A stretch of DNA of 21,230 nucleotides from Planctomycetota bacterium (lineage in GTDB: Bacteria; Planctomycetota; PUPC01; JACPCR01), in NCBI GenBank assembly GCA_030740295.1, contig JASLXP010000025.1, positions 1 through 21,230 of the forward strand. Direction: 5' to 3'. Below, piece by piece: positions 2,918-20,527 of this stretch. The number at the start of each line of letters is the position of its first letter. The first letter of the stretch is position 1. The position numbers and the translations under genes were made by a program. Under the pieces are notes generated by a model. It was not told the origin of the DNA, ran no database searches, and saw only the letters and a program-made list of their open reading frames with translations.

Positions 2918-5900
2918 ATGACTTTCATGAGGTATCCGGTTCGTTCATCGCGTCTGCTGGCGGCCCCGACCACGTTTTTTCTTCTCTGTTCCCTCGCTTC
3001 GCACGCCCACGCTGAAATCACCATAGCGCTCGATGGCAAATCATCCTGCGTCATCGTGCGGGCGAAAGACGCCATCGAGCCCGAGAAACATGCGGCGAAG
3101 GAACTGGCGCACTTTCTTGGACGCGTTGCCGGGGCGACATTTACAGCCGTAGAGGAATCGCAGGCTTCAGAGGAGACGTCTCGTATCTACGTCGGACAGA
3201 CGGCCTTCGCCGCTGCGCAGGGCATCGAGTTCAACAGACTTGGTGAGGAGGAATGGGTCATCCGAACGGTGGGCAAGCATCTCATCCTCACTGGTGGGCG
3301 ACCGCGAGGGACACTCTACGCGGTCTATGAATTCCTTGAAGACCACATCGGGTGTCACTGGCTGGATCGGCGAACGGAGGTGGTTCCTTCGAGAGCGTCC
3401 ATCAGGCTTGGCAAGCTCGATGTACAGTCCAAGCCCTGGTTCTGGCAGCGTGCGGTTCGCTCGCCGACCGGATGCCCTGACGACCAATGGGGCTTCATGA
3501 TCCGGAACAAGAATTACCGTTACGATTTTCGAGGGCGCAAGGACTTCTATCCCAAAGGAGCGTTTTACCGGCTGCATGGCCCGAAGCGATCGGCAGTTCA
3601 TTCGTTTTCGCAGTTCGTGAATGCGAAGGACTGGTTTGAGACGCATCCCGAGTACTTCGCACTGGATCGGAGAGGTAAGCGCATCCCCGCTTATGATGGC
3701 GCGGGGCCGGGACAGCTCTGCCTGACCCATCCGGACGTCGAGCGGCTGACGCTGGAGAAACTGCGCGAGTTCATTGCGGCAGATCGCATCGAAGCCGCGC
3801 AGAAAGGTGTGCCGCCGCCGAAGATTTACTGGCTCACTCAGAACGACAAATACGACGCGCACTGCCAGTGCAAAAACTGCCAGGCGAAAGCCAAAGCAGA
3901 AGCCAGCGAGAGCGGGCCGCTGATTCACTTTGTGAATCGAGTCGCCTCGGCCATCGAAAAGGAACATCCGAAAACCCTCATCGGCACACTGGGCTATAAC
4001 CAAACGTCGGAACCGCCCCGAAAGCTCCAGCCGCGGCACAATGTGCTGATTGGCTGGTGCGATGTTTACAGCAAGGTCGATGGGATACGCCCGCTATCGC
4101 ACGCGTTTAATGCGGAGAACTTCGGCGAGATTACGGCTTGGGGCAAAGCCGGCGGGCGGCTCGGTATCGGCGACGACTACTGGACGAGCCTGAGCTATTA
4201 CTCGGCGTTTCCGACGCCGTATTCCATTGTCCACTGCATCGCGTCTGACCTGAAGCTCTTCGCCGATCTGGGCGCGAAGTCGTTCTTTGCAGAGAGCGCA
4301 CATTACATGGAGGCGGGCCAGCAATTTGTTCCGCTGAAGTTCTGGCTCGCCTACCAGCTTCTGGTTGATCCCAAACAGCCTGTCGAGCCGCTGCTGGAGA
4401 TTTTCATGGACGGCTTTTTCAGCGCCGCCTGCGGGAAGATGCGTGCGTATCTGAACTATCTGCGGAAGCGCATCGACTCGGACGCTCAGTTCAAGATGCT
4501 GCGGGACGCGCCGCACAAGCTTGCCTACCTCGACCTCGAATTCTTCGTGACCTCGTCCAGGCTCTTCGAAGAAGCGGAGGCGCTGCTGGAACCCGACAGC
4601 CTCTTTGCCCGCCACGTCTACGACGAGCGCTTCATACTGGATTCCGCACTGCTCTGGCTCTGGCCATGGCTCGAACGCAAGCTGCCGCCGGGAGAGGCCA
4701 TGCCCTTCGGCCGCGAAAAAGTTATCAGCCGTTACGAACGGGGATGGCGATCATTCGTGAAGGGCCGTTACTCACGCTTCTACTCCAAGCAGAAACTCTC
4801 ACTCAACAAGGACGGCAAACTCATGGAGCGGATGGTCGGACTGTTTCGTGAGCCAAAGCTGCCGGATCAGTTCAGCAAGCTGCCTCGACGTGATGTCGCT
4901 GATTTCAACTGGCTGACCTTTTCGCACATCCGACCGCGGCAGAGGTTCGTTCCAGATGACGAAGCAGCCGGCCGCATGACTGCGACGTTCACCACCAAGA
5001 GCAGAATCCAGGCGGCCGAGAAGGGCGGCGACGCGCCCAAGCTTGCCGCAGACGCTCAGCATCAAAAGCCGTTGAAGCTCGGCGTAGACGACGACCTGAC
5101 CGTCACCATGGGCCCAAACAATCTGCCCCAGGACGGCAAGTATCACCTCTACAGGCTCGGCCGAATCCGCGTCCGGCCCGGCACGATGGTGTGGGCGCTG
5201 GAAGGCAGACGACTGGGTGTCATTGTTGACCGACTGTATGTCGAGGATTCGGACGATCCTGCCGCCAACGACTGGAACGCATACATTTCGCTCAAGCTCC
5301 GCGGCCCGGCCTACGTGCGAGGCTCGAAAGAGCCCAACGGAGTCTGGATGGATCGTGTGCTGCTCGTAAAGCCCCAGCCCGGCGAGGAAGTCGATCCCGC
5401 CTACCTCGCCCAACTCGAACTGGAACGCAAGCGCCTGGCCATGCGCCCCAGACTCGAAGCGCCACGAATCACTGCCGGCGCATCAGGTGATCCGAATAAA
5501 GTCGATTGGGCGAGTGCAGCAACCGCGCCCCAATGGCGAACGCTCAAAGGCGATCTCTCCAACCGAAAGCTGTCTGCAAGCTTCCTCCACGACACCGAGT
5601 TTCTCTATGTGCGCCTGCGAGACGTCATGGACACCAAACAACTCGTCATCCACAACGACGTCTTCGGCGGAGACGACTGGGAATTCCTCTTCGCGGAAAA
5701 GCGCGGCGTGCGTCCGTATCGTCAATGGGCAATCAACCCCAACGGCAAAAGCAGAGACCTCGCTTACGGAGAGGCACCCTGGAAGAGCCACGTCCGAGCG
5801 AAGTCAACCATCGACAGGAACGTCTGGACAGTCACTCTTTCGTTTCCGCTGAAGCATCTCCTCCCGCGCGGCGCCAAGTCGGGACAGACCATCTACATGA

Positions 5901-5998
5901 ACATCATGCGCGGCGGCAAAGAGAATCTGGTATGGAGTCCGACGTTCAGCGGCAAGTTCCAGGCCCTCGATCGGCTGGGCGCGCTCATTCTGAAATAA
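2918..5998 (+). CDS. Secreted DUF4838 protein with CBM9-like C-terminal domain (second, longer paralogue)
   Basis: This 1026-residue protein has an N-terminal hydrophobic signal segment ending SLASHAHA before EITIAL; ATG at 2927 is an alternative start. It shares landmarks with the gene before it: RGTLYAVYEFLEDHIGCHWL (about residue 130), HPEYFAL, Cys-x-Cys-x-x-Cys at C316, C318 and C321, then HFVNRVASAIEKEHP. The middle, about residues 420-840, is longer than in its neighbour and includes alpha-helical and beta-rich parts that I cannot assign. A CBM9-like module occupies about residues 845-1026 (FLYVRLRD, then WAINPNGKSRDLAYG). It is probably exported and acts on or binds glycans; this rests on the family and is not shown by catalytic residues. 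It converges with the ThuA/cytochrome gene, with a 141-bp gap in which I see no convincing terminator. Confidence 0.88.
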   Translation: MTFMRYPVRSSRLLAAPTTFFLLCSLASHAHAEITIALDGKSSCVIVRAKDAIEPEKHAAKELAHFLGRVAGATFTAVEESQASEETSRIYVGQTAFAAAQGIEFNRLGEEEWVIRTVGKHLILTGGRPRGTLYAVYEFLEDHIGCHWLDRRTEVVPSRASIRLGKLDVQSKPWFWQRAVRSPTGCPDDQWGFMIRNKNYRYDFRGRKDFYPKGAFYRLHGPKRSAVHSFSQFVNAKDWFETHPEYFALDRRGKRIPAYDGAGPGQLCLTHPDVERLTLEKLREFIAADRIEAAQKGVPPPKIYWLTQNDKYDAHCQCKNCQAKAKAEASESGPLIHFVNRVASAIEKEHPKTLIGTLGYNQTSEPPRKLQPRHNVLIGWCDVYSKVDGIRPLSHAFNAENFGEITAWGKAGGRLGIGDDYWTSLSYYSAFPTPYSIVHCIASDLKLFADLGAKSFFAESAHYMEAGQQFVPLKFWLAYQLLVDPKQPVEPLLEIFMDGFFSAACGKMRAYLNYLRKRIDSDAQFKMLRDAPHKLAYLDLEFFVTSSRLFEEAEALLEPDSLFARHVYDERFILDSALLWLWPWLERKLPPGEAMPFGREKVISRYERGWRSFVKGRYSRFYSKQKLSLNKDGKLMERMVGLFREPKLPDQFSKLPRRDVADFNWLTFSHIRPRQRFVPDDEAAGRMTATFTTKSRIQAAEKGGDAPKLAADAQHQKPLKLGVDDDLTVTMGPNNLPQDGKYHLYRLGRIRVRPGTMVWALEGRRLGVIVDRLYVEDSDDPAANDWNAYISLKLRGPAYVRGSKEPNGVWMDRVLLVKPQPGEEVDPAYLAQLELERKRLAMRPRLEAPRITAGASGDPNKVDWASAATAPQWRTLKGDLSNRKLSASFLHDTEFLYVRLRDVMDTKQLVIHNDVFGGDDWEFLFAEKRGVRPYRQWAINPNGKSRDLAYGEAPWKSHVRAKSTIDRNVWTVTLSFPLKHLLPRGAKSGQTIYMNIMRGGKENLVWSPTFSGKFQALDRLGALILK

Positions 5999-6139: not shown

Positions 6140-9100
6140 TTACTTCGTCTCCAGGGTCTTCAGATACGCCAGCAAAGATGCAAACTGGTCCGGGGTCAGC
6201 ATCTGCACAAGGCCATCCGGCATCATGGAGTTTTCTCGCTTGCCGCGCTTTCTGATATCGCGTTTGTTCATGATTATGGAGACTCCAGCAATGTTGCGGA
6301 TCTCGATCTCGTCACCACTTTCACGAACGACGAAACCCTCGTGCTGAACGTTCCCCCTTTTCATTTGAAACCAGTGGCTGGCAAACGCGGGCGCAATGCG
6401 GGCGCTCGGCTTGAGGATGCTCTCGATGACTTCGTGCGGCTTGTAGCGCTTGGTGATATCGATCAGGCTGGGTCCCTTGAGGGGCTCGTTGGGCGAGACC
6501 GTGTGGCAGGCAACGCAGCCCTGAGTCATGAACAATTGCTGCCCATCGGATGGCTTTCCTTTGATGCCTGCGACGATAGAGGCCAGTTTCTCCGGCTTCA
6601 ATTCGCCGATGGTCTCGTCTGTGAAATCGGAGGCCGGCCTTTCGAGGATAATCTTCTCGGCCAGTTCTTTTACCGCTGGATTCGCATGGCTTCGCAGCTC
6701 GCCGACGAGACCCACGATGGCATCACGTTCCTTGCCTTTGACCAGTTGGCTGGTCGCAAGATTATTTAATATGGCAAAGGCGACCGAACGGAGGGCGGCG
6801 TGTTGTCCGGTTGCAGCTTGCCTCACGAGATTCAAGCGTTTGGTATGTTTGGGGCTGCGAAGGAATGCTTCACGGGCGTACGCCATCTCGCCGGTCGTTT
6901 CTTTAACCGCCGATGCAACTTCACAGGCTGCGTTGAAACCTTGTTTGATGTCGGCCGTGCGCATAAGACCGTCCAGGATGCGAACGCGGATCTTGGAGTC
7001 TGCATTCGTGTCGATCGCCAATTCCTTCAGCAGATGGATGCCCTGGGACGGTACCTTTGAAGATTCCAGAAAGATGATGGCAGCAGTCGCTCTGAACTCT
7101 GGCTTCTTCTGTGCCAGATTCAGCAGTATGTTGAGCGAGTTCTTGATTTCGACGCGATTGCGCGGCAGTTCGCTCAAGAGGAATGGCACTAATTCAGGTT
7201 CGGAAAGTGATTTCATCAACCGCTCGAGAATCGCATCGCTCTTTTCCCATTTGACGGGCTTGTAGTACGGCCCGCGGCTGTCCGGTCGCGTGCCCCACCA
7301 GCCGCCGTCGTAATCAGCTTCCCTGTAATGCAGGCGGGCGAGCGCGCTCAGAAGATCTTTCTTAGCCTCGACGTCTGTCACCGAATCCAACCGCTCTATA
7401 AGCCCATCGACCACTTCGGGCTTGTGGAGCGCGTGCAAAGCCCTGAGACTCCCTTTACGTACTGCCGCATTGCTGCCATCAACACCAGCGAGCGCGGCAT
7501 CGGCGGCCTCGAGTCTCACCAGGCTTTTGACAGCGACGTGCGCGACGAGGAAGTCGCTGTCCGCAGTGAGCTTCGTGAGCGGCGCGGCGGCCTCAAGCTT
7601 TCCCAGGCGCCCAACGCCGATGGCCGCCTGGAGACGCACTCGAGGATTCTTGTCGGTGAGGGCATCAACGAACGGCATCACTGGCACGTCTGCGTTTTCA
7701 CCAAGCCGATCGGTGAGAGCGCGCAAGGCGAATTCGCGCAAGCTGTCATCTCTGGTGAGCTCAACGAGAGCCGGATGCGATTTCGCGCCCTGAAGTTGTT
7801 TCAATGTGAAGATGGCGGCTATACGTGCACCGCGATTCCTCTGAGCGTCCTTTGCCAGCTTCGTCATGCCATCGGCGAAGACGGGTCTGTCGCCGCGGCG
7901 AAGGATTTCCAATTGGGTGTGCTGACGCCAGATGTGACTCTCTGACGCCATCAGCCCAACGAGCTCTTCATCGGTGGCCTTCTTCAGGTCGGGGAATTTG
8001 CGCGGTTTGAAATCCTTTGGGGTGACGCGGACGACGTACCCGCAGTTCGGGTTCTTAAAAGCGAAACCGCCGCCGTGCCAGCTCGTGATGTAGATGCGAC
8101 CGCTGCCGTCCATGTCGATATCGGTCGGCCGGCTCACTTTGACGAACTCCCTCTGCTCGGCCTTGAAGCCGGCACCGTTCGGCGTCAGAGGATGGTGATA
8201 GACGACGCTGCGCCCCCAGTCGCAGGTGAGCAACCCGCCGAAGCCAGGCAGCCCGGGCTCATCAAAAAAGATCGATCCGCAGGGGGAGCCGCCGCCGTAA
8301 TCGTCCAGGCAATCGATGTGTTCGTCTTTGAAGTTCTTGAACTGACGCGGATAGCCGTACTGGGCCTGGCCTCCAATGACATGGCTGAGCCGGACGTTCC
8401 AGCCACCGCCGTCGTTCGTATTGTCGCGGGTAAAAAGATCGAGCCGCGGGCTGACCGCGACATCGTACACGTTGCGCAGGCCCCTGGCGTAGATTTCCAG
8501 TTCGGTCCCGTCCAGTCTTACTCTCGCGATTCCTCCTCCCTGCAGGACGACCTTCCTGCCACTCTTATCGACCGCGTTGTTAAATCCAAAATCGCCAACT
8601 GCGATGTACATCCATCCATCGATGCCAACGCGAAAACCATTGGTAGTGTGATCGCCACCGCGTCCAACAAGGCCACGCTGGGTGGATATGCCGCTGATGA
8701 GCAGATCGTTCTTGTCAGCTTTGCCATCGCCGTCGGTGTCCTCAAACACTCGCACGAAGGGCGGATGCAATACCCACAGTTTACCGTTGTCGTAAAACAT
8801 GCCGCGGCCGTTGAAAACCATCCACTTGTTGTCGCCGGTTGTGTCTTCGACTTTCTCTGCGAAGACGTTCACCTTATCGGCCTTGCCATCGCCATCGCTA
8901 TCGACCAGCCGAAGGATGTTCTGCTGGACGTCGCGCCTTTTCCCGAGAGAGCCATTCTGGTCGACCGCAACGAACACTTCGCCGGTCGGCGCGCAGGCCA
9001 CCGCGGACGGATAGCTGACCTCCGGCGCCTTTGCGAACATGCTGAATTCGTAATTATCAGGAACGCGGACACTACCCTTTGTGTTGAATGGCTTTGGCAC

Positions 9101-10423
9101 GTTTCTGTTGATCAAGACCTTCTCGGTCTTCGGCAACTCCTCGGTCGTGTACGCTTCGAACTCCCAGAAACTCGCCCAGAGAGCCTGGGAGTGCTTCAGA
9201 GCGGTCACCTTGATAAAGCGCGTGTCCGGCGCGTCCACCACATGCGCCGAGACAAAGTTGTCCTTTTTCGGTTTGGTTTCGTCGACGATCATTTTCCACT
9301 CTTTCTCGTCTTTCGAGCCTTCGATCTTGAACGTGTATCGGCTGTCCTTGTACATCTTTTCCCAATGGATACGCAGGCTCTTGATATGCTCGGGCTTGCC
9401 GAGGTCGACCTGCCACCACTGCGGATACCGGCTGTTCGCCGCGCACCAGCGAGTGCCGAGATTGCCATCGACGGCATTCTTACTGATGTTGCCCTTGTTT
9501 TTCTCGTTGCTGGATGCCTTGGTCGGCTTGTTGGTCGCCAGGTTTGGCTTCACCTTCCCCGCGCCTTTCTTCACCTGCGCTTTGGGCGCGGGTTTGCTCT
9601 TGCCTGCCTTTGACTTTGCTGCGGCGATTACCTTTGTGTGCTCGTCCTTGGAAACGGCCTTGAATGTCTGGTCATCGAGCCTTTTCAGGGTCCATAGAAA
9701 ACCGCGAGCGACAGTGTCCATCCATTCCTGGGTCTCGACGGTCTCGTTATGATGGCCGACGGTGGTGCCAAAGACGCGGCACTTTTCATATTCGTTCGTC
9801 CACATGCAGACCTCATAGAGGTCCTTCTTCTTGCCATCCAGTCGCAGTGCGTGTGCGATCGGCGTGGCCGTCTTCATGATTTCAGTGACCGCATAGAGCT
9901 CTCCCTTGGGCGTCTTCCATGCCTTACCCATTTTCGTGAGGATCGGATGGTCGGGCTTAATCGGCTCGACCGTGTACGGATAGTGGGAACCGTGGCGATG
10001 GGAACGGATACCGAGGAATTTCACATAGGGCTCGACGCGACCGAAACCATAGCTGTGCATGTTGCAGTGCATGACAACGGCCGGAATGCCTTCGCGGTGC
10101 GGCTGCAGAATCTTGTTTATCCATTCCATGTCACGTATGCCCGCGTGACATTCGTTGTGAAAAATGATGTCGAACTTTTCGCTGAGATCACCCTTTTCGT
10201 AAATGGGAATCTTTGCGTTCTGGCTGTGCTCCAGCGTCCATTCGATGGGGAAACCGCAACGAGCAGCGATTCCTTCAGTGATGGTGAATTTCTGCGAGTT
10301 GTAGTCGTGGCAGCACCCGCCGGTGACCATGAGGGCCCGAACGGCCTTGGGGGAGACGTCTTCCGCCTGAATGGATGTAATTGTTAAAGTGGCCACCAGC
10401 GTGGCATGCAGGAATGCGTTCAT
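6140..10423 (-). CDS. ThuA / discoidin / PVC-type dehydrogenase / HEAT / cytochrome c fusion protein
   Basis: The chosen ATG (10421-10423) has GGGAAG six bases upstream and begins a signal peptide (MNAFLHATLVATLTITSIQA), giving 1427 residues; an open frame continues upstream but would bury the signal. Domains in order: ThuA-like (about 25-260, starting RALMVTGGCCHDYN); a Lys/Ala/Pro linker; an F5/8 type C discoidin domain (about 290-425, NAVDGNLGTRWCA and WWQVDLG); a PVC membrane-bound dehydrogenase-type beta-propeller (about 440-810) with two DxDGDGKAD calcium-type loops; HEAT-like helical repeats (about 815-1270); and a C-terminal heme domain. The heme site is C1303-V-A-C1306-H1307, and M1400 or M1401 before PDGL is the likely axial ligand. 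It probably acts in the periplasm, oxidising a sugar-like substrate and passing electrons to heme c; the substrate is unknown. Confidence 0.92.
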   Translation of the reverse strand: MNAFLHATLVATLTITSIQAEDVSPKAVRALMVTGGCCHDYNSQKFTITEGIAARCGFPIEWTLEHSQNAKIPIYEKGDLSEKFDIIFHNECHAGIRDMEWINKILQPHREGIPAVVMHCNMHSYGFGRVEPYVKFLGIRSHRHGSHYPYTVEPIKPDHPILTKMGKAWKTPKGELYAVTEIMKTATPIAHALRLDGKKKDLYEVCMWTNEYEKCRVFGTTVGHHNETVETQEWMDTVARGFLWTLKRLDDQTFKAVSKDEHTKVIAAAKSKAGKSKPAPKAQVKKGAGKVKPNLATNKPTKASSNEKNKGNISKNAVDGNLGTRWCAANSRYPQWWQVDLGKPEHIKSLRIHWEKMYKDSRYTFKIEGSKDEKEWKMIVDETKPKKDNFVSAHVVDAPDTRFIKVTALKHSQALWASFWEFEAYTTEELPKTEKVLINRNVPKPFNTKGSVRVPDNYEFSMFAKAPEVSYPSAVACAPTGEVFVAVDQNGSLGKRRDVQQNILRLVDSDGDGKADKVNVFAEKVEDTTGDNKWMVFNGRGMFYDNGKLWVLHPPFVRVFEDTDGDGKADKNDLLISGISTQRGLVGRGGDHTTNGFRVGIDGWMYIAVGDFGFNNAVDKSGRKVVLQGGGIARVRLDGTELEIYARGLRNVYDVAVSPRLDLFTRDNTNDGGGWNVRLSHVIGGQAQYGYPRQFKNFKDEHIDCLDDYGGGSPCGSIFFDEPGLPGFGGLLTCDWGRSVVYHHPLTPNGAGFKAEQREFVKVSRPTDIDMDGSGRIYITSWHGGGFAFKNPNCGYVVRVTPKDFKPRKFPDLKKATDEELVGLMASESHIWRQHTQLEILRRGDRPVFADGMTKLAKDAQRNRGARIAAIFTLKQLQGAKSHPALVELTRDDSLREFALRALTDRLGENADVPVMPFVDALTDKNPRVRLQAAIGVGRLGKLEAAAPLTKLTADSDFLVAHVAVKSLVRLEAADAALAGVDGSNAAVRKGSLRALHALHKPEVVDGLIERLDSVTDVEAKKDLLSALARLHYREADYDGGWWGTRPDSRGPYYKPVKWEKSDAILERLMKSLSEPELVPFLLSELPRNRVEIKNSLNILLNLAQKKPEFRATAAIIFLESSKVPSQGIHLLKELAIDTNADSKIRVRILDGLMRTADIKQGFNAACEVASAVKETTGEMAYAREAFLRSPKHTKRLNLVRQAATGQHAALRSVAFAILNNLATSQLVKGKERDAIVGLVGELRSHANPAVKELAEKIILERPASDFTDETIGELKPEKLASIVAGIKGKPSDGQQLFMTQGCVACHTVSPNEPLKGPSLIDITKRYKPHEVIESILKPSARIAPAFASHWFQMKRGNVQHEGFVVRESGDEIEIRNIAGVSIIMNKRDIRKRGKRENSMMPDGLVQMLTPDQFASLLAYLKTLETK

Positions 10424-10429
10424 GAGGTT

Positions 10430-10435
10430 CTTCCC
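10430..10435 (-). promoter_or_regulatory. Shine-Dalgarno deciding the start of the ThuA fusion gene
   Basis: On the minus strand GGGAAG lies six bases before ATG 10423-10421. It supports the internal ATG, which directly precedes a signal peptide, over a start 51 bases further upstream. Confidence 0.6.
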
Positions 10436-10680
10436 ATTTGTATTAATCGCCGCGCCAGATTTTGGGGACAGCATTAAAACAATAATTTCAGGGTTCGCCG
10501 ATGGTTTGGGGGCCGTTTGAAATCTAATGGGAGGATGTGGAGTGAACCCACCGGAAGACGAGTTGGCGCAACAACTGCTGGCTGATGCTGGTTACATATC
10601 ATCGCACTGATATCGATCTGCCGGACATCCGGTTCAGTGCCATAAGAATCGCTGACCACGGCTGTCAAGGTGAAAAGCCT

Positions 10681-17225: not shown

Positions 17226-17249
17226 TATTCAGTGTCCCTCACCTTCTCA

Positions 17250-17687
17250 ATGGGCAAACACGAAGCCCAGTTTCCAACCGACCGCGTCTACTGCTGGAAT
17301 CACATGTGGCGTAAATCGGAGGGAGGCCGATTCCGCTTTGGGCTGTCTGCTTACGCGGTTCGGTTGCTGCAGGATGTGTACTTTCTTGATTGGGCCTTCG
17401 AAACGCCTGCCGCTTTCAAAAGGGGTGATGAGATTGGCAGTATCGAAAGCTCAAAAGCCCTGTCTGCGCTCTTTGCGCCTATGGATGGCAATATAGTGAG
17501 CTTTAACGAAGATCTGCTGGACGACCCATCCACCATAAACGCTGATACATATAATGACGGTTGGCTGTTTGAAATGGAGGGTGAAACCGGCAAGGCTATG
17601 TCCCCTGAAAACTATCTGAAGTTTCTTGACCAGGCTTGGGACAAGGCCCAGAAGACTCTCAAGAAACAGCTCTTAACCGAGAATTGA
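17250..17687 (+). CDS. GcvH-like lipoyl carrier protein
   Basis: This 145-residue protein matches glycine cleavage H protein in size and plan. FGLSAYAVRLLQDVYFLDW corresponds to the H-protein strand region ending in the ILGDIVFVELP-like segment, GDEIGSIESSKALSALFAPM holds the expected lipoyl lysine (K69, in ESSKA rather than the usual ESVKA), and NDGWLFEM matches the conserved NPYGxGWLxKI-type strand. Lipoylation of K69 is therefore likely. No gcvP, gcvT or lpd is nearby, so it need not serve glycine cleavage; stand-alone lipoate-binding H-like proteins are known in sulfur oxidation, where they work with heterodisulfide-reductase-like proteins. ATG 17250 is preferred by alignment to the family, though no ribosome site is clear. 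The ferredoxin gene starts two bases after its stop. Confidence 0.88.
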   Translation: MGKHEAQFPTDRVYCWNHMWRKSEGGRFRFGLSAYAVRLLQDVYFLDWAFETPAAFKRGDEIGSIESSKALSALFAPMDGNIVSFNEDLLDDPSTINADTYNDGWLFEMEGETGKAMSPENYLKFLDQAWDKAQKTLKKQLLTEN

Positions 17688-17689
17688 AA

Positions 17690-18688
17690 ATGGCAGACAA
17701 ACTCACCGTTGTCCTTTCCCAATCGCAGAATAAGCACCCCGCTCGTCGCGGGCTCGAGGAAGACATTGCCACCCAACTGCTGATGGAAAAGGACGTCGTG
17801 GTCTCCGTCATCCCGCATCTCTACGATATCAACGAAAAGCACACGGCCATGCTGTTCCTGCGTTCGATTGAAAGCGATGTCGTCGTGCTTTCCTGGCTCT
17901 ACCCGCGTGCCGCGCACTGGATGCTCGACAGGTATCAGGTGAAGGGCCATATCGGCGACGTGCTCCTCAAGGATGATGAAGATGACGAAGGCATGGAAGA
18001 TACGGATGACGAAGGTAGCGGCATCGGTGCGGCGGACCTGCCTGACCGGCACATCTACACCATCGATCTCAGAGTGAGCGATCGGCACGAAGATTACCTT
18101 GAAGAAATCCGCCGTATCGCTAAAGAAAGTAAAGACCGCAGTCAGGCACAGAAGGCCGCTTCGCAGCTTGGGTTCGTATCGATTGATTCTGTCACCTCCA
18201 CGAATGGTGAAGGCAAGGTCCGACAGGAACTCATGGCCCCGACGCGGCGCCGCTGGTACCCAGTCATAGATTTTAATCGATGCACGAACTGCATGGAGTG
18301 TATCGATTTCTGCCTTTTCGGCGTTTATGGCGTCGACAACATCGACCGCATCCTCGTCGAAAACCCGGACAACTGTAAGAAGGGCTGCCCCGCATGCAGC
18401 CGTGTCTGCCCCGAGCAGGCCATCATTTTTCCGGAATACAGAAGCCCTGAAATCGCGGGCGCTAATCTCGGAGGCATCGGCGGCCTCAAGATCGATCTCA
18501 CAAAACTATTTGGAGGCGGCGACGCTGTTTCCACAGCCGCGAGTGAGCGCGATGCTGAGCTTGTTAAAGATGGTCGCGATGCGGTTGGATGGGCTGTGGG
18601 GATCCCGAAGCGTCAGGAAGGCATCGAGAGCGAACCGAAAGATGAACTCGATGACCTGATGGATTCGCTGGAGGATGTGGAGATTTAG
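17690..18688 (+). CDS. Two-cluster 4Fe-4S ferredoxin-like protein with unassigned N-terminal domain
   Basis: This protein has 332 residues. Residues 1 to about 100 look like an alpha/beta domain (KLTVVLSQSQNKHPARR, a VVVSVIPHLYDI strand and a DVVVLSWLYPRAA strand) that I cannot assign. An acidic loop (DDEDDEGMEDTDDEGS, about 104-119) follows. Cluster one is C198-x2-C201-x2-C204-x3-C208; cluster two is C229-x3-C233-x2-C236-x3-C240-P. Eight cysteines in this order should hold two [4Fe-4S] centres. The tail is Gly-rich, then acidic. There is no signal peptide or membrane helix, so it is a cytoplasmic electron carrier or the small subunit of a complex. Its tight pairing with the lipoyl carrier suggests that it exchanges electrons with the dihydrolipoyl arm or a shared enzyme; this is inference. 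It ends 15 bp from the convergent next gene. Confidence 0.85.
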   Translation: MADKLTVVLSQSQNKHPARRGLEEDIATQLLMEKDVVVSVIPHLYDINEKHTAMLFLRSIESDVVVLSWLYPRAAHWMLDRYQVKGHIGDVLLKDDEDDEGMEDTDDEGSGIGAADLPDRHIYTIDLRVSDRHEDYLEEIRRIAKESKDRSQAQKAASQLGFVSIDSVTSTNGEGKVRQELMAPTRRRWYPVIDFNRCTNCMECIDFCLFGVYGVDNIDRILVENPDNCKKGCPACSRVCPEQAIIFPEYRSPEIAGANLGGIGGLKIDLTKLFGGGDAVSTAASERDAELVKDGRDAVGWAVGIPKRQEGIESEPKDELDDLMDSLEDVEI

Positions 18689-18703: not shown

Positions 18704-20497
18704 TTATGGGCCTGTCCTGTACTCCAGCCGATTCCTTTTCCCGATCGGGCGTGGTTCGGATGGATCGAACCACTGCTCCCAGGTTGGTGACAGAAAGGCC
18801 GGTACGCCTTTTAGCTCCAGCGTGAATGAAAGATCTTGAAAGCGACAGTTGGGGCCGGTCTTCGTGATCATGCGGGTGGCGCTGCCGATGGATGGGCGGA
18901 GGTACCAAATCTTGCCGGCGAGGCCCTTGGGCACGGTGATCGCCTGTTCGCCTTGCCGGGCGTAGAGGAGCGCCTGGACGCGGTCAGGCGCGCAGACCTC
19001 CATCTGAAGCACATCCGTCGGCAGGTCGGCTGCAAAGCGTAAAGAGAAAGACTCAACAGCTGATGGTACGAAGAAATACCAGTTCCGCGGGGCGCAGGCT
19101 GTAAAGCGGAAACGCTTCCACTCACCGTGCCCTTCTCCGATTAACACCAGCGGCGTTGCCGGGTAAGTAAAGCTGAGCCAGCGTTCGACTCCGGCAACTG
19201 CCACCTTTGCCACGCCCTTGCCGGTCTTCAGGGTGTCGGTCGGTTTGCCGTGTGTGCCGTGGATGTGGCCCATGGGCATGGATTTTTCCAGCACGGGCTG
19301 ACCACTCGCGCCCGTTACCGTCACCTGCGCCATCGCTGGATTCTGAGCATCCTGCCGAGGGAGGTAAGTGCCGATGCGGAAGGCCAGGTTTCGGCCATCC
19401 GGATTCCACAAGGCAAACTGAGCGTCACCGAGAATCTCGATCCCGTCCGGGTCGCCAAGCGAAGGGCAGGGCGAGAAGTGTTCGAGGTGCGGCCACCGGG
19501 CATGAATCTGCTTCAGGCGTTCAGAGCCGGTGAATTTCGGATCTTTCATCTTGTGATGCAGAGCCTGGAAAGAGATGTTTCCTTCAAGGGGCGCGCCCTG
19601 GATATAGGGCGCGTCGTCGTAGACACTGATGGCAGGTGTCTTCCCAGTGCGCGGGTCGAACCATTCTTCCGGGCTGCGAGCCAGGTAGGGAGGGACGCCA
19701 TCGAAGGCGATGTTGATATTTGAATAATGGTGCGAGTCACCGAGGCTGACCTCAAGACACCAGAATCGCCCGGCCGCGCCCGGCTCGACCTCTACCTCGG
19801 CCCGCTGTCTCTGGTGGTATTTGCCACTGGCGTGGGAACGATTATCGGGCTGGCCCCACAGGGCCCGGATGCGCTGTCCACGCGGCGAAATGATGAAGAA
19901 ACCCCAGTCCTCGCGCTGCGACATGCTCCACTGGTCGCGCAGCGCCTCGGCAGTAAAGGTCGTTACTTCCGGCGGGACCCAGAACCACCATCGCCGCGGC
20001 ACGTTGGCCTGGAAAACCACCGGCCCGTGCTTTTCGTAGAACTTTCGCTTGCGTGCCTTACCGGTCTGCTTGTTGGAGATCGGGTCGTTGAAGTTGTGCA
20101 GGTTCGTGCCCTGGTCGCCCGTCCAGACCACCGACTGCGGCAGCGTAGATTCAAACCAGACGTTCACTCCCTTGGTGTGAAGTCGATACACGCCTTCAAC
20201 TGCCTTCTTCACTTCCAGTGTGACTGTCGAGTTTGCCAGCTTCTGTGGCCCATCGATGAGCACTTTTCCGTCAGGGGCGAGCAGCCTCAATGTGATCGTT
20301 TCCGGATTCCACTTCGGGATCGCCCATCGCATGACGTGTGCAGTAATCGTGAAGGCCCCGCCATCGGGATTGTTGAAGTGCGCGGTAGGGGTGTAGGACA
20401 TGAAATGGCCCCAGTCCCCCAAGGCCGTGTCAGCGGGGGTGTGGCGTCCTGTCAGGCACACCAGGATGGTGATCAGTCGAAGTTTGAAACTGTTCAT
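18704..20497 (-). CDS. Secreted protein of unknown function with internal duplication
   Basis: This 597-residue protein starts at ATG 20497, which has AGGAG nine bases upstream; a GTG 18 bases further upstream is rejected. A signal-like N terminus (MNSFKLRLITILVCLTG) suggests export. I do not recognise a family. The protein is a tandem duplication: residues about 30-285 and 370-585 each show a beta-rich opening, an aromatic segment (RRWWFWVPPEVTTF against RNWYFFVPSAVESF), an AGRFWCLEVSLG against AGKIWYLRPSIG segment, and a closing GVPPYLARSPEEWFDP against GVPAFLSPTWEQWFDP. This suggests a two-domain beta-sandwich, possibly carbohydrate-binding given its neighbours. No catalytic motif or metal cluster is seen. 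The partial gene upstream lies 75 bp away on the same strand, so both may be co-transcribed. Confidence 0.8.
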   Translation of the reverse strand: MNSFKLRLITILVCLTGRHTPADTALGDWGHFMSYTPTAHFNNPDGGAFTITAHVMRWAIPKWNPETITLRLLAPDGKVLIDGPQKLANSTVTLEVKKAVEGVYRLHTKGVNVWFESTLPQSVVWTGDQGTNLHNFNDPISNKQTGKARKRKFYEKHGPVVFQANVPRRWWFWVPPEVTTFTAEALRDQWSMSQREDWGFFIISPRGQRIRALWGQPDNRSHASGKYHQRQRAEVEVEPGAAGRFWCLEVSLGDSHHYSNINIAFDGVPPYLARSPEEWFDPRTGKTPAISVYDDAPYIQGAPLEGNISFQALHHKMKDPKFTGSERLKQIHARWPHLEHFSPCPSLGDPDGIEILGDAQFALWNPDGRNLAFRIGTYLPRQDAQNPAMAQVTVTGASGQPVLEKSMPMGHIHGTHGKPTDTLKTGKGVAKVAVAGVERWLSFTYPATPLVLIGEGHGEWKRFRFTACAPRNWYFFVPSAVESFSLRFAADLPTDVLQMEVCAPDRVQALLYARQGEQAITVPKGLAGKIWYLRPSIGSATRMITKTGPNCRFQDLSFTLELKGVPAFLSPTWEQWFDPSEPRPIGKRNRLEYRTGP

Positions 20498-20506
20498 GCG
20501 TTGCGT

Positions 20507-20511
20507 CTCCT
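20507..20511 (-). promoter_or_regulatory. Shine-Dalgarno deciding the start of the duplicated secreted protein
   Basis: AGGAG on the minus strand lies nine bases before ATG 20497-20495, one of the few clear ribosome sites in the window. Confidence 0.6.
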
Positions 20512-20527
20512 GCACCGATGTTGCGGG

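Follow-up and report, generated by a model that had tools for sequence, protein, structure and literature searches.

We analyzed a stretch of Planctomycetota DNA of 21,230 nucleotides (the window), in which two open frames, 17250-17687 and 17690-18688, lie on the + strand with a gap of two bases between them. The initial annotation had described a GcvH-like protein followed, two bases on, by a protein with eight cysteines in a 2x[4Fe-4S] pattern, and the frames, Pfam matches, and cysteine positions that we obtained agree with this description. The first gene (17232..17687, +) encodes a GcvH-like lipoyl carrier of 151 amino acids (Pfam GCV_H, E 2e-21) with the lipoyl motif IESSKA, and the codon for the lipoyl lysine lies at 17454-17456 (+). 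This lysine had been numbered K69, counting from the ATG at 17250; the residue itself stands, but its number probably does not. The true start of the gene is probably the GTG at 17232, in place of that ATG, because a near-identical database protein of 151 amino acids (P0121) begins at the equivalent of this GTG, and because a short leader before MGK is common to the carrier relatives in our alignment. P0121 has a leucine where the window carrier has the 17250 codon. With the GTG as the start, the lipoyl lysine would therefore become K75.

The carrier has the GCV_H domain with a lipoyl lysine that marks members of the GcvH family, and it is predicted to be lipoylated. It resembles GcvH in this domain, in the motif E-[ST]-x-K-A, and in its length of about 145 to 150 amino acids, yet it differs in its position away from gcvP, in the conserved C-terminal tail of its family (Y-x3-L-x3-W-x3-Q-x3-K), in the presence of further GcvH proteins in the genomes of its relatives, and in its scores, which fall under both NCBIfam gcvH cut-offs (79.8 versus 115.85 bits and 91.2 versus 117 bits). 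Two distant pair carriers likewise scored under the cut-offs of the gcvH models. The lipoyl lysine is kept in all 69 close sequences (68 loci plus the window) and in all eight distant carriers that we aligned, which come from loci where the ferredoxin is matched at its cluster core only. A search of plasmid records with the carrier gave 156 matches, all below 60% identity; among the 10 listed, all four with a named feature were gcvH.

The second gene (17690..18688, +) encodes a ferredoxin-like protein of 332 amino acids that consists of an unassigned N-terminal domain, a variable linker, a 2x[4Fe-4S] domain, and a conserved C-terminal tail. The dicluster ferredoxin domain (18254..18436, +; approximately residues 189-249) carries the motifs C-x2-C-x2-C-x3-C and C-x3-C-x2-C-x3-C, and the protein contains exactly eight cysteines, C198/201/204/208 and C229/233/236/240. 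These cluster cysteines are invariant across 32 aligned ferredoxin relatives. The two four-cysteine motifs that characterize dicluster ferredoxins, from which cluster binding is predicted, are present in 92 of 93 loci; in the remaining locus (L093), the spacing between the cysteine motifs is one residue shorter. All Pfam matches of the protein were of the Fer4 type and lay at 189-248, and its best NCBIfam match was PorD_KorD, at 32.8 bits (cut-off 60). Dicluster ferredoxins of the PorD/KorD type share the 2x[4Fe-4S] domain, but the window ferredoxin differs from them in its N-terminal region of about 180 residues, its conserved tail, and the form of its second cysteine motif.

That N-terminal region (17690..18229, +; approximately residues 1-180) had already been called unassigned, and our searches bear this out. 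Residues 1-190 of the window protein had no Pfam match better than E 0.13, nine N-terminal pieces from the window and its relatives gave a best E of 0.058 against Pfam at E<=10, which is not credible, and an N-terminal profile searched against the PDB at E<=10 returned nothing credible (best E 0.38). The region nevertheless keeps LTVVLSQ-, LYD-, and W-x-[YF]-P-R-A-like motifs across relatives (alignment A7). When the profile of this long N-terminal domain was compared with that of the short N-terminal domain in the core-only group, the probability was 9%, too low to establish that the two are homologous; the full-length and core-only groups of ferredoxins are connected by their cluster core and gene context. 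The ferredoxin had no match among plasmid records. Both genes look to be under purifying selection, with dN/dS values (NG86) against the closest relative compared (G049) of 0.056 (carrier) and 0.092 (ferredoxin).

The adjacency of the two genes, which the initial annotation had singled out for checking, proved to be conserved, and the pairing occurs well beyond a single genome. We scanned species genomes with the ferredoxin alignment and took the best 80 of the 392 relatives as loci; 79 of these 80 have titles whose genera we take to be planctomycete, and one (L008) is titled only Bacterium. We found a GcvH-like frame in 68 of the 80 loci. Among the 75 assessable loci, those with at least 700 bases upstream of the ferredoxin (five were set aside), 66 have a same-strand carrier at most 4 kb upstream, and in 60 no more than 300 bases separate its end from the point where the ferredoxin's stop-to-stop frame begins. 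For the nine loci without an upstream carrier, six genomes hold one of the same type elsewhere (counted at E<=1e-60), one holds a fragment, and two hold none; in this search, the genome of L033 holds a carrier, that of L028 only a fragment of 39 positions, and that of L060 none. The two-base gap is identical in G049. As a separate observation, a frame of about 900 amino acids, with an N terminus that presumably represents an NYN-type nuclease, lies between GcvH and the ferredoxin in L026, L034, and L052, and frames of similar size occur in L047 and L053. At L007, which has no GcvH at the locus, a related frame lies upstream.

We also drew 148 Planctomycetota genomes, a sample that includes genomes with proteins in our alignment (G004, G049), and found a ferredoxin match (E<=1e-30) in 33. 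The match was full length in 16 (one of them in two pieces), spanned positions 122-306 in 4, and covered the cluster core only in 13. Of the 33, 32 have a same-strand GcvH at most 3 kb upstream of the ferredoxin, the exception being G118. Genomes that have the ferredoxin and no recognizable full carrier of the pair type are G118, G158, G159, and G169, and only fragments were found in G164 and G168; incomplete assemblies may explain some of these cases.

Clustering of the genes around the pair in relatives revealed recurrent neighbors. Upstream there is a HemN-like radical SAM gene; downstream there are genes for an SQHop-domain cyclase and for a protein that fuses DUF116 to a polyprenyl synthetase (the DUF116-synthase). 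Some loci also encode a radical SAM protein weakly like HpnH. Where enough flanking sequence was available, the cyclase lies downstream in 34 of 53 loci, the DUF116-synthase downstream in 23 of 42, and the HemN-like gene upstream in 43 of 66. The pair also co-occurs with this machinery across genomes. At E<=1e-100, the DUF116-synthase was found in 33/33 ferredoxin genomes versus 3/115 others (Fisher p 7e-30) and the HpnH-like protein in 33/33 versus 2/115 (Fisher p 6e-31; 6/115 at E<=1e-60), statistics that ignore shared ancestry. Co-localization is frequent as well: in 25 of the 33 genomes the synthase and the ferredoxin share a strand and are no more than 8 kb apart, and in only 19 is the HpnH-like gene that close. 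Outside the 33, three genomes have a synthase: in G069 and G096 no ferredoxin or pair carrier was seen close to it, and G027 has a divergent ferredoxin, an HpnH-like gene, a synthase, and a cyclase with no GcvH beside them. Our literature search found no publication on this block of carrier, ferredoxin, and polyprenoid genes.

Twelve further regions were taken from the genome sample, comprising nine core-only loci, two of the 122-306 group, and one full-length locus, and some of them end at contig edges. Here we found GcvH in 11, a CobW-type GTPase in 10, the HpnH-like gene in 10, the synthase in 10, and the cyclase in 9, often in a different order; for L086, L087, and L091, the HpnH-like and CobW matches hold by construction. 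In the first set of 80 loci, the CobW-type GTPase is confined to L068, L073, and L077. The block was also found in two records titled Candidatus Kuenenia stuttgartiensis (L028, L058), titles that may be wrong, and the gene spacing of L028 is the same as that of L014 and L023, which are titled Planctomycetaceae.

The window itself looks different. A model search found no cyclase, synthase, radical SAM, or other partner gene within its 21 kb; a GT4-type glycosyltransferase and a symporter lie upstream of the pair, and downstream is a 603-amino-acid frame (18704-20515, -) without a Pfam or NCBIfam match. This frame occupies the place that the cyclase gene has in G049. In G049, whose ferredoxin is 83% identical to that of the window, the genes run consecutively in the order carrier, ferredoxin, cyclase, synthase, and the HemN-like and HpnH-like genes are on other contigs. 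Given that the partner genes are absent from the window and are partly kept beside the pair in G049, the window pair stands apart from the block. The initial annotation missed the polyprenoid block because it is not in the window, and the presence in relatives of a larger block of terpenoid-type cyclase, DUF116-polyprenyl synthase, and radical SAM genes changes the likely function of the pair. Elsewhere in the window, 331-2850 and 2918-5998 (+) encode neighboring DUF4838 proteins, and the second of these also has a GH67 N-terminal domain; 6140-10474 (-) encodes a protein of 1444 amino acids with ThuA, F5/8 type C, DUF7133, HEAT, and cytochrome c domains.

The enzymes of the block recall hopanoid synthesis, in that relatives of the pair are found with an SQHop cyclase and a radical SAM protein of weak similarity to HpnH, but the resemblance to the pathway of SHC and HpnH is distant. 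The block includes the DUF116-polyprenyl synthase fusion, and its enzymes score far under the hopanoid models: two cyclases reached 128 and 90 bits against hopene_cyclase (cut-off 431), and three HpnH-like proteins reached 38, 34, and 48 bits against TIGR03470 (cut-off 225). SQHop Pfam domains were present in the one cyclase that we scanned against Pfam. In our alignments, the cyclase keeps D-x-D-D-T and the synthase keeps D-D-x-x-D-like residues. The DUF116 part of the fusion has seven invariant cysteines in the 14 synthases of alignment A5 (including L003:6247-8148), which suggests that it may carry an Fe-S center. Since a passage of PMC6606645 speaks of hopanoid production in relatives of Gemmata obscuriglobus, the product could be a hopanoid-like lipid, although the cyclases and HpnH-like proteins that we scanned lie well below the hopanoid models. 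The same article reports genetic interruption in G. obscuriglobus.

In most of the relatives that we checked, the pair sits close to genes for making ring-shaped lipids, which suggests an undescribed redox reaction in the synthesis of these lipids. We therefore propose, with about even confidence, that the carrier and the ferredoxin form the redox module of a cyclic-polyprenoid pathway of Planctomycetota. In the relatives, the core enzymes of this pathway would be the SHC-domain cyclase, the DUF116-polyprenyl diphosphate synthase fusion, and the distantly HpnH-like radical SAM protein. Weighing against the proposal are the lack of the block in the window, the genomes with a ferredoxin but no full pair carrier (G118, G158, G159, G169, and G027, with fragments only in G164 and G168), the pair-bearing G098 with no LipA over the cut-off, and the limited number of genomes in which the HpnH-like gene and the synthase lie close to the ferredoxin.

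We found gcvP in all 33 ferredoxin-bearing genomes, along with at least one further GcvH in every one of them, and in 27 this further GcvH shares a strand with gcvP and is at most 2.5 kb away from it. By contrast, not one of the 32 pair-bearing genomes has the carrier of the pair within 5 kb of gcvP, and the pair carriers of the relatives are neither linked to gcvP nor the only H protein present. Given that all 33 genomes have a further GcvH and that no pair lies near gcvP, we conclude that the carrier is a dedicated GcvH paralogue outside glycine cleavage, a conclusion that is well supported by these relatives. The initial suggestion that the pair is not tied to glycine cleavage thus holds in the relatives, and the contrary case, a glycine-cleavage operon that lacks an H protein of its own and relies on this carrier, did not occur among the 33 ferredoxin-bearing genomes. 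A tree built from 27 pair carriers together with 20 further GcvH proteins has a split, with moderate ultrafast-bootstrap support (79), on one side of which all the 20 lie. LipA was over its cut-off in 32 of the 33 genomes, so that lipoylation of the carrier would be possible in nearly all of them; the remaining genome, G098, has the pair and no LipA over the cut-off. Extra GcvH-like copies were seen within about 4 kb of weak LipA-like matches in G098 (contig C62), G023 (C4), and G030 (C342), an arrangement that could be an LbpA/LipS-type cluster.

One alternative that would keep a link to GcvP is one-carbon delivery, in which GcvP would load an aminomethyl group onto the lipoyl arm of the carrier and a pathway enzyme would take the C1 unit, for example for lipid methylation. 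The retained GCV_H domain and lipoyl motif and the universal presence of gcvP are consistent with this, but the distance of the carrier from gcvP and the other H protein beside gcvP in most genomes argue against it, and the ferredoxin partner would be left unexplained. We regard such delivery as improbable.

Another alternative is that the pair serves the HemN-like radical SAM enzyme and that its proximity to terpenoid genes is simply inherited gene order. The HemN-like gene is indeed the upstream neighbor in many loci, and it was found (E<=1e-120) in 32/33 ferredoxin genomes. It was, however, also found in 9/115 genomes without the ferredoxin and is less specific for that reason, and we did not find it in the twelve regions, most of which have the polyprenoid genes. 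We rejected it as a core member of the block on these two grounds, and we see only a slim chance that the pair works for this enzyme alone.

The lipoyl arm might instead move sulfane sulfur for thiolation or Fe-S assembly, as an LbpA-like sulfur carrier would. LbpA is a GcvH homologue that works with an Fe-S system and has two strictly conserved cysteines near its N and C termini, according to passages in PMC6067878. The pair carrier is like the LbpA of sHdr systems in being a GcvH-like lipoyl protein outside glycine cleavage that is linked to Fe-S proteins, but its partner is a ferredoxin near polyprenoid genes and it lacks a conserved cysteine pair, the best column holding Cys in 40 of 69 sequences. 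No hdr-like, sLpl(AB), or lipS genes were seen among the annotated recurrent neighbors. The initial annotation had drawn an analogy to heterodisulfide-reductase-like systems; because the LbpA cysteines are absent and no Hdr gene appears among those neighbors, we consider the analogy weak. At one distant locus, a cysteine desulfurase (L087:9888-11048, -; 467 bits against the DndA model, cut-off 480) lies directly upstream of the carrier, which would suit sulfur transfer, but such a gene occurs in just 3 of 93 loci, one of them by construction, and we rejected it as a conserved neighbor. Sulfur carriage by the pair is, in our judgment, quite unlikely. It is very unlikely that the carrier is an additional acceptor in lipoate assembly or a spare H protein for glycine cleavage, for although database names, where given among the matches listed, refer to glycine cleavage H and a relay role is described for Bacillus GcvH in part of PMC6067878, the carrier falls under both gcvH cut-offs and is coupled to polyprenoid genes, and the 20 canonical GcvH proteins lie on one side of the moderately supported split in the tree.

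If the pair is the redox module of a polyprenoid pathway, the carrier would be lipoylated and its dihydrolipoyl arm could act as a mobile dithiol within the pathway, either reduced by the ferredoxin or passing electrons to it. Electron transfer between the two proteins, which the initial annotation had raised as a possibility, is plausible. The ferredoxin may pass low-potential electrons to the centers of the radical SAM proteins and perhaps of DUF116, to the lipoyl disulfide, or to both. More speculatively, the lipoyl arm might quench a radical on the polyprenoid. The lipoyl arm has so far been known as a carrier of acyl groups, aminomethyl groups, or, as proposed, sulfur. A more specific and rather doubtful version of our proposal is that it has been recruited as a swinging dithiol, donating electrons or hydrogen atoms for radical chemistry on a cyclic polyprenoid, and that it is recharged by its own ferredoxin, whose N-terminal region would be a new docking domain. 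If true, the H-protein fold would gain a new role, and Planctomycetota would have a new lipid pathway.

Among the matches listed, the source databases name these proteins "glycine cleavage system protein H" and "ferredoxin family protein" or similar. If our reading is true, these names mislead, and Planctomycetota would use lipoate in lipid biosynthesis. The conserved set of carrier, ferredoxin, DUF116 synthase, cyclase, and radical SAM protein would then be testable in culturable species.
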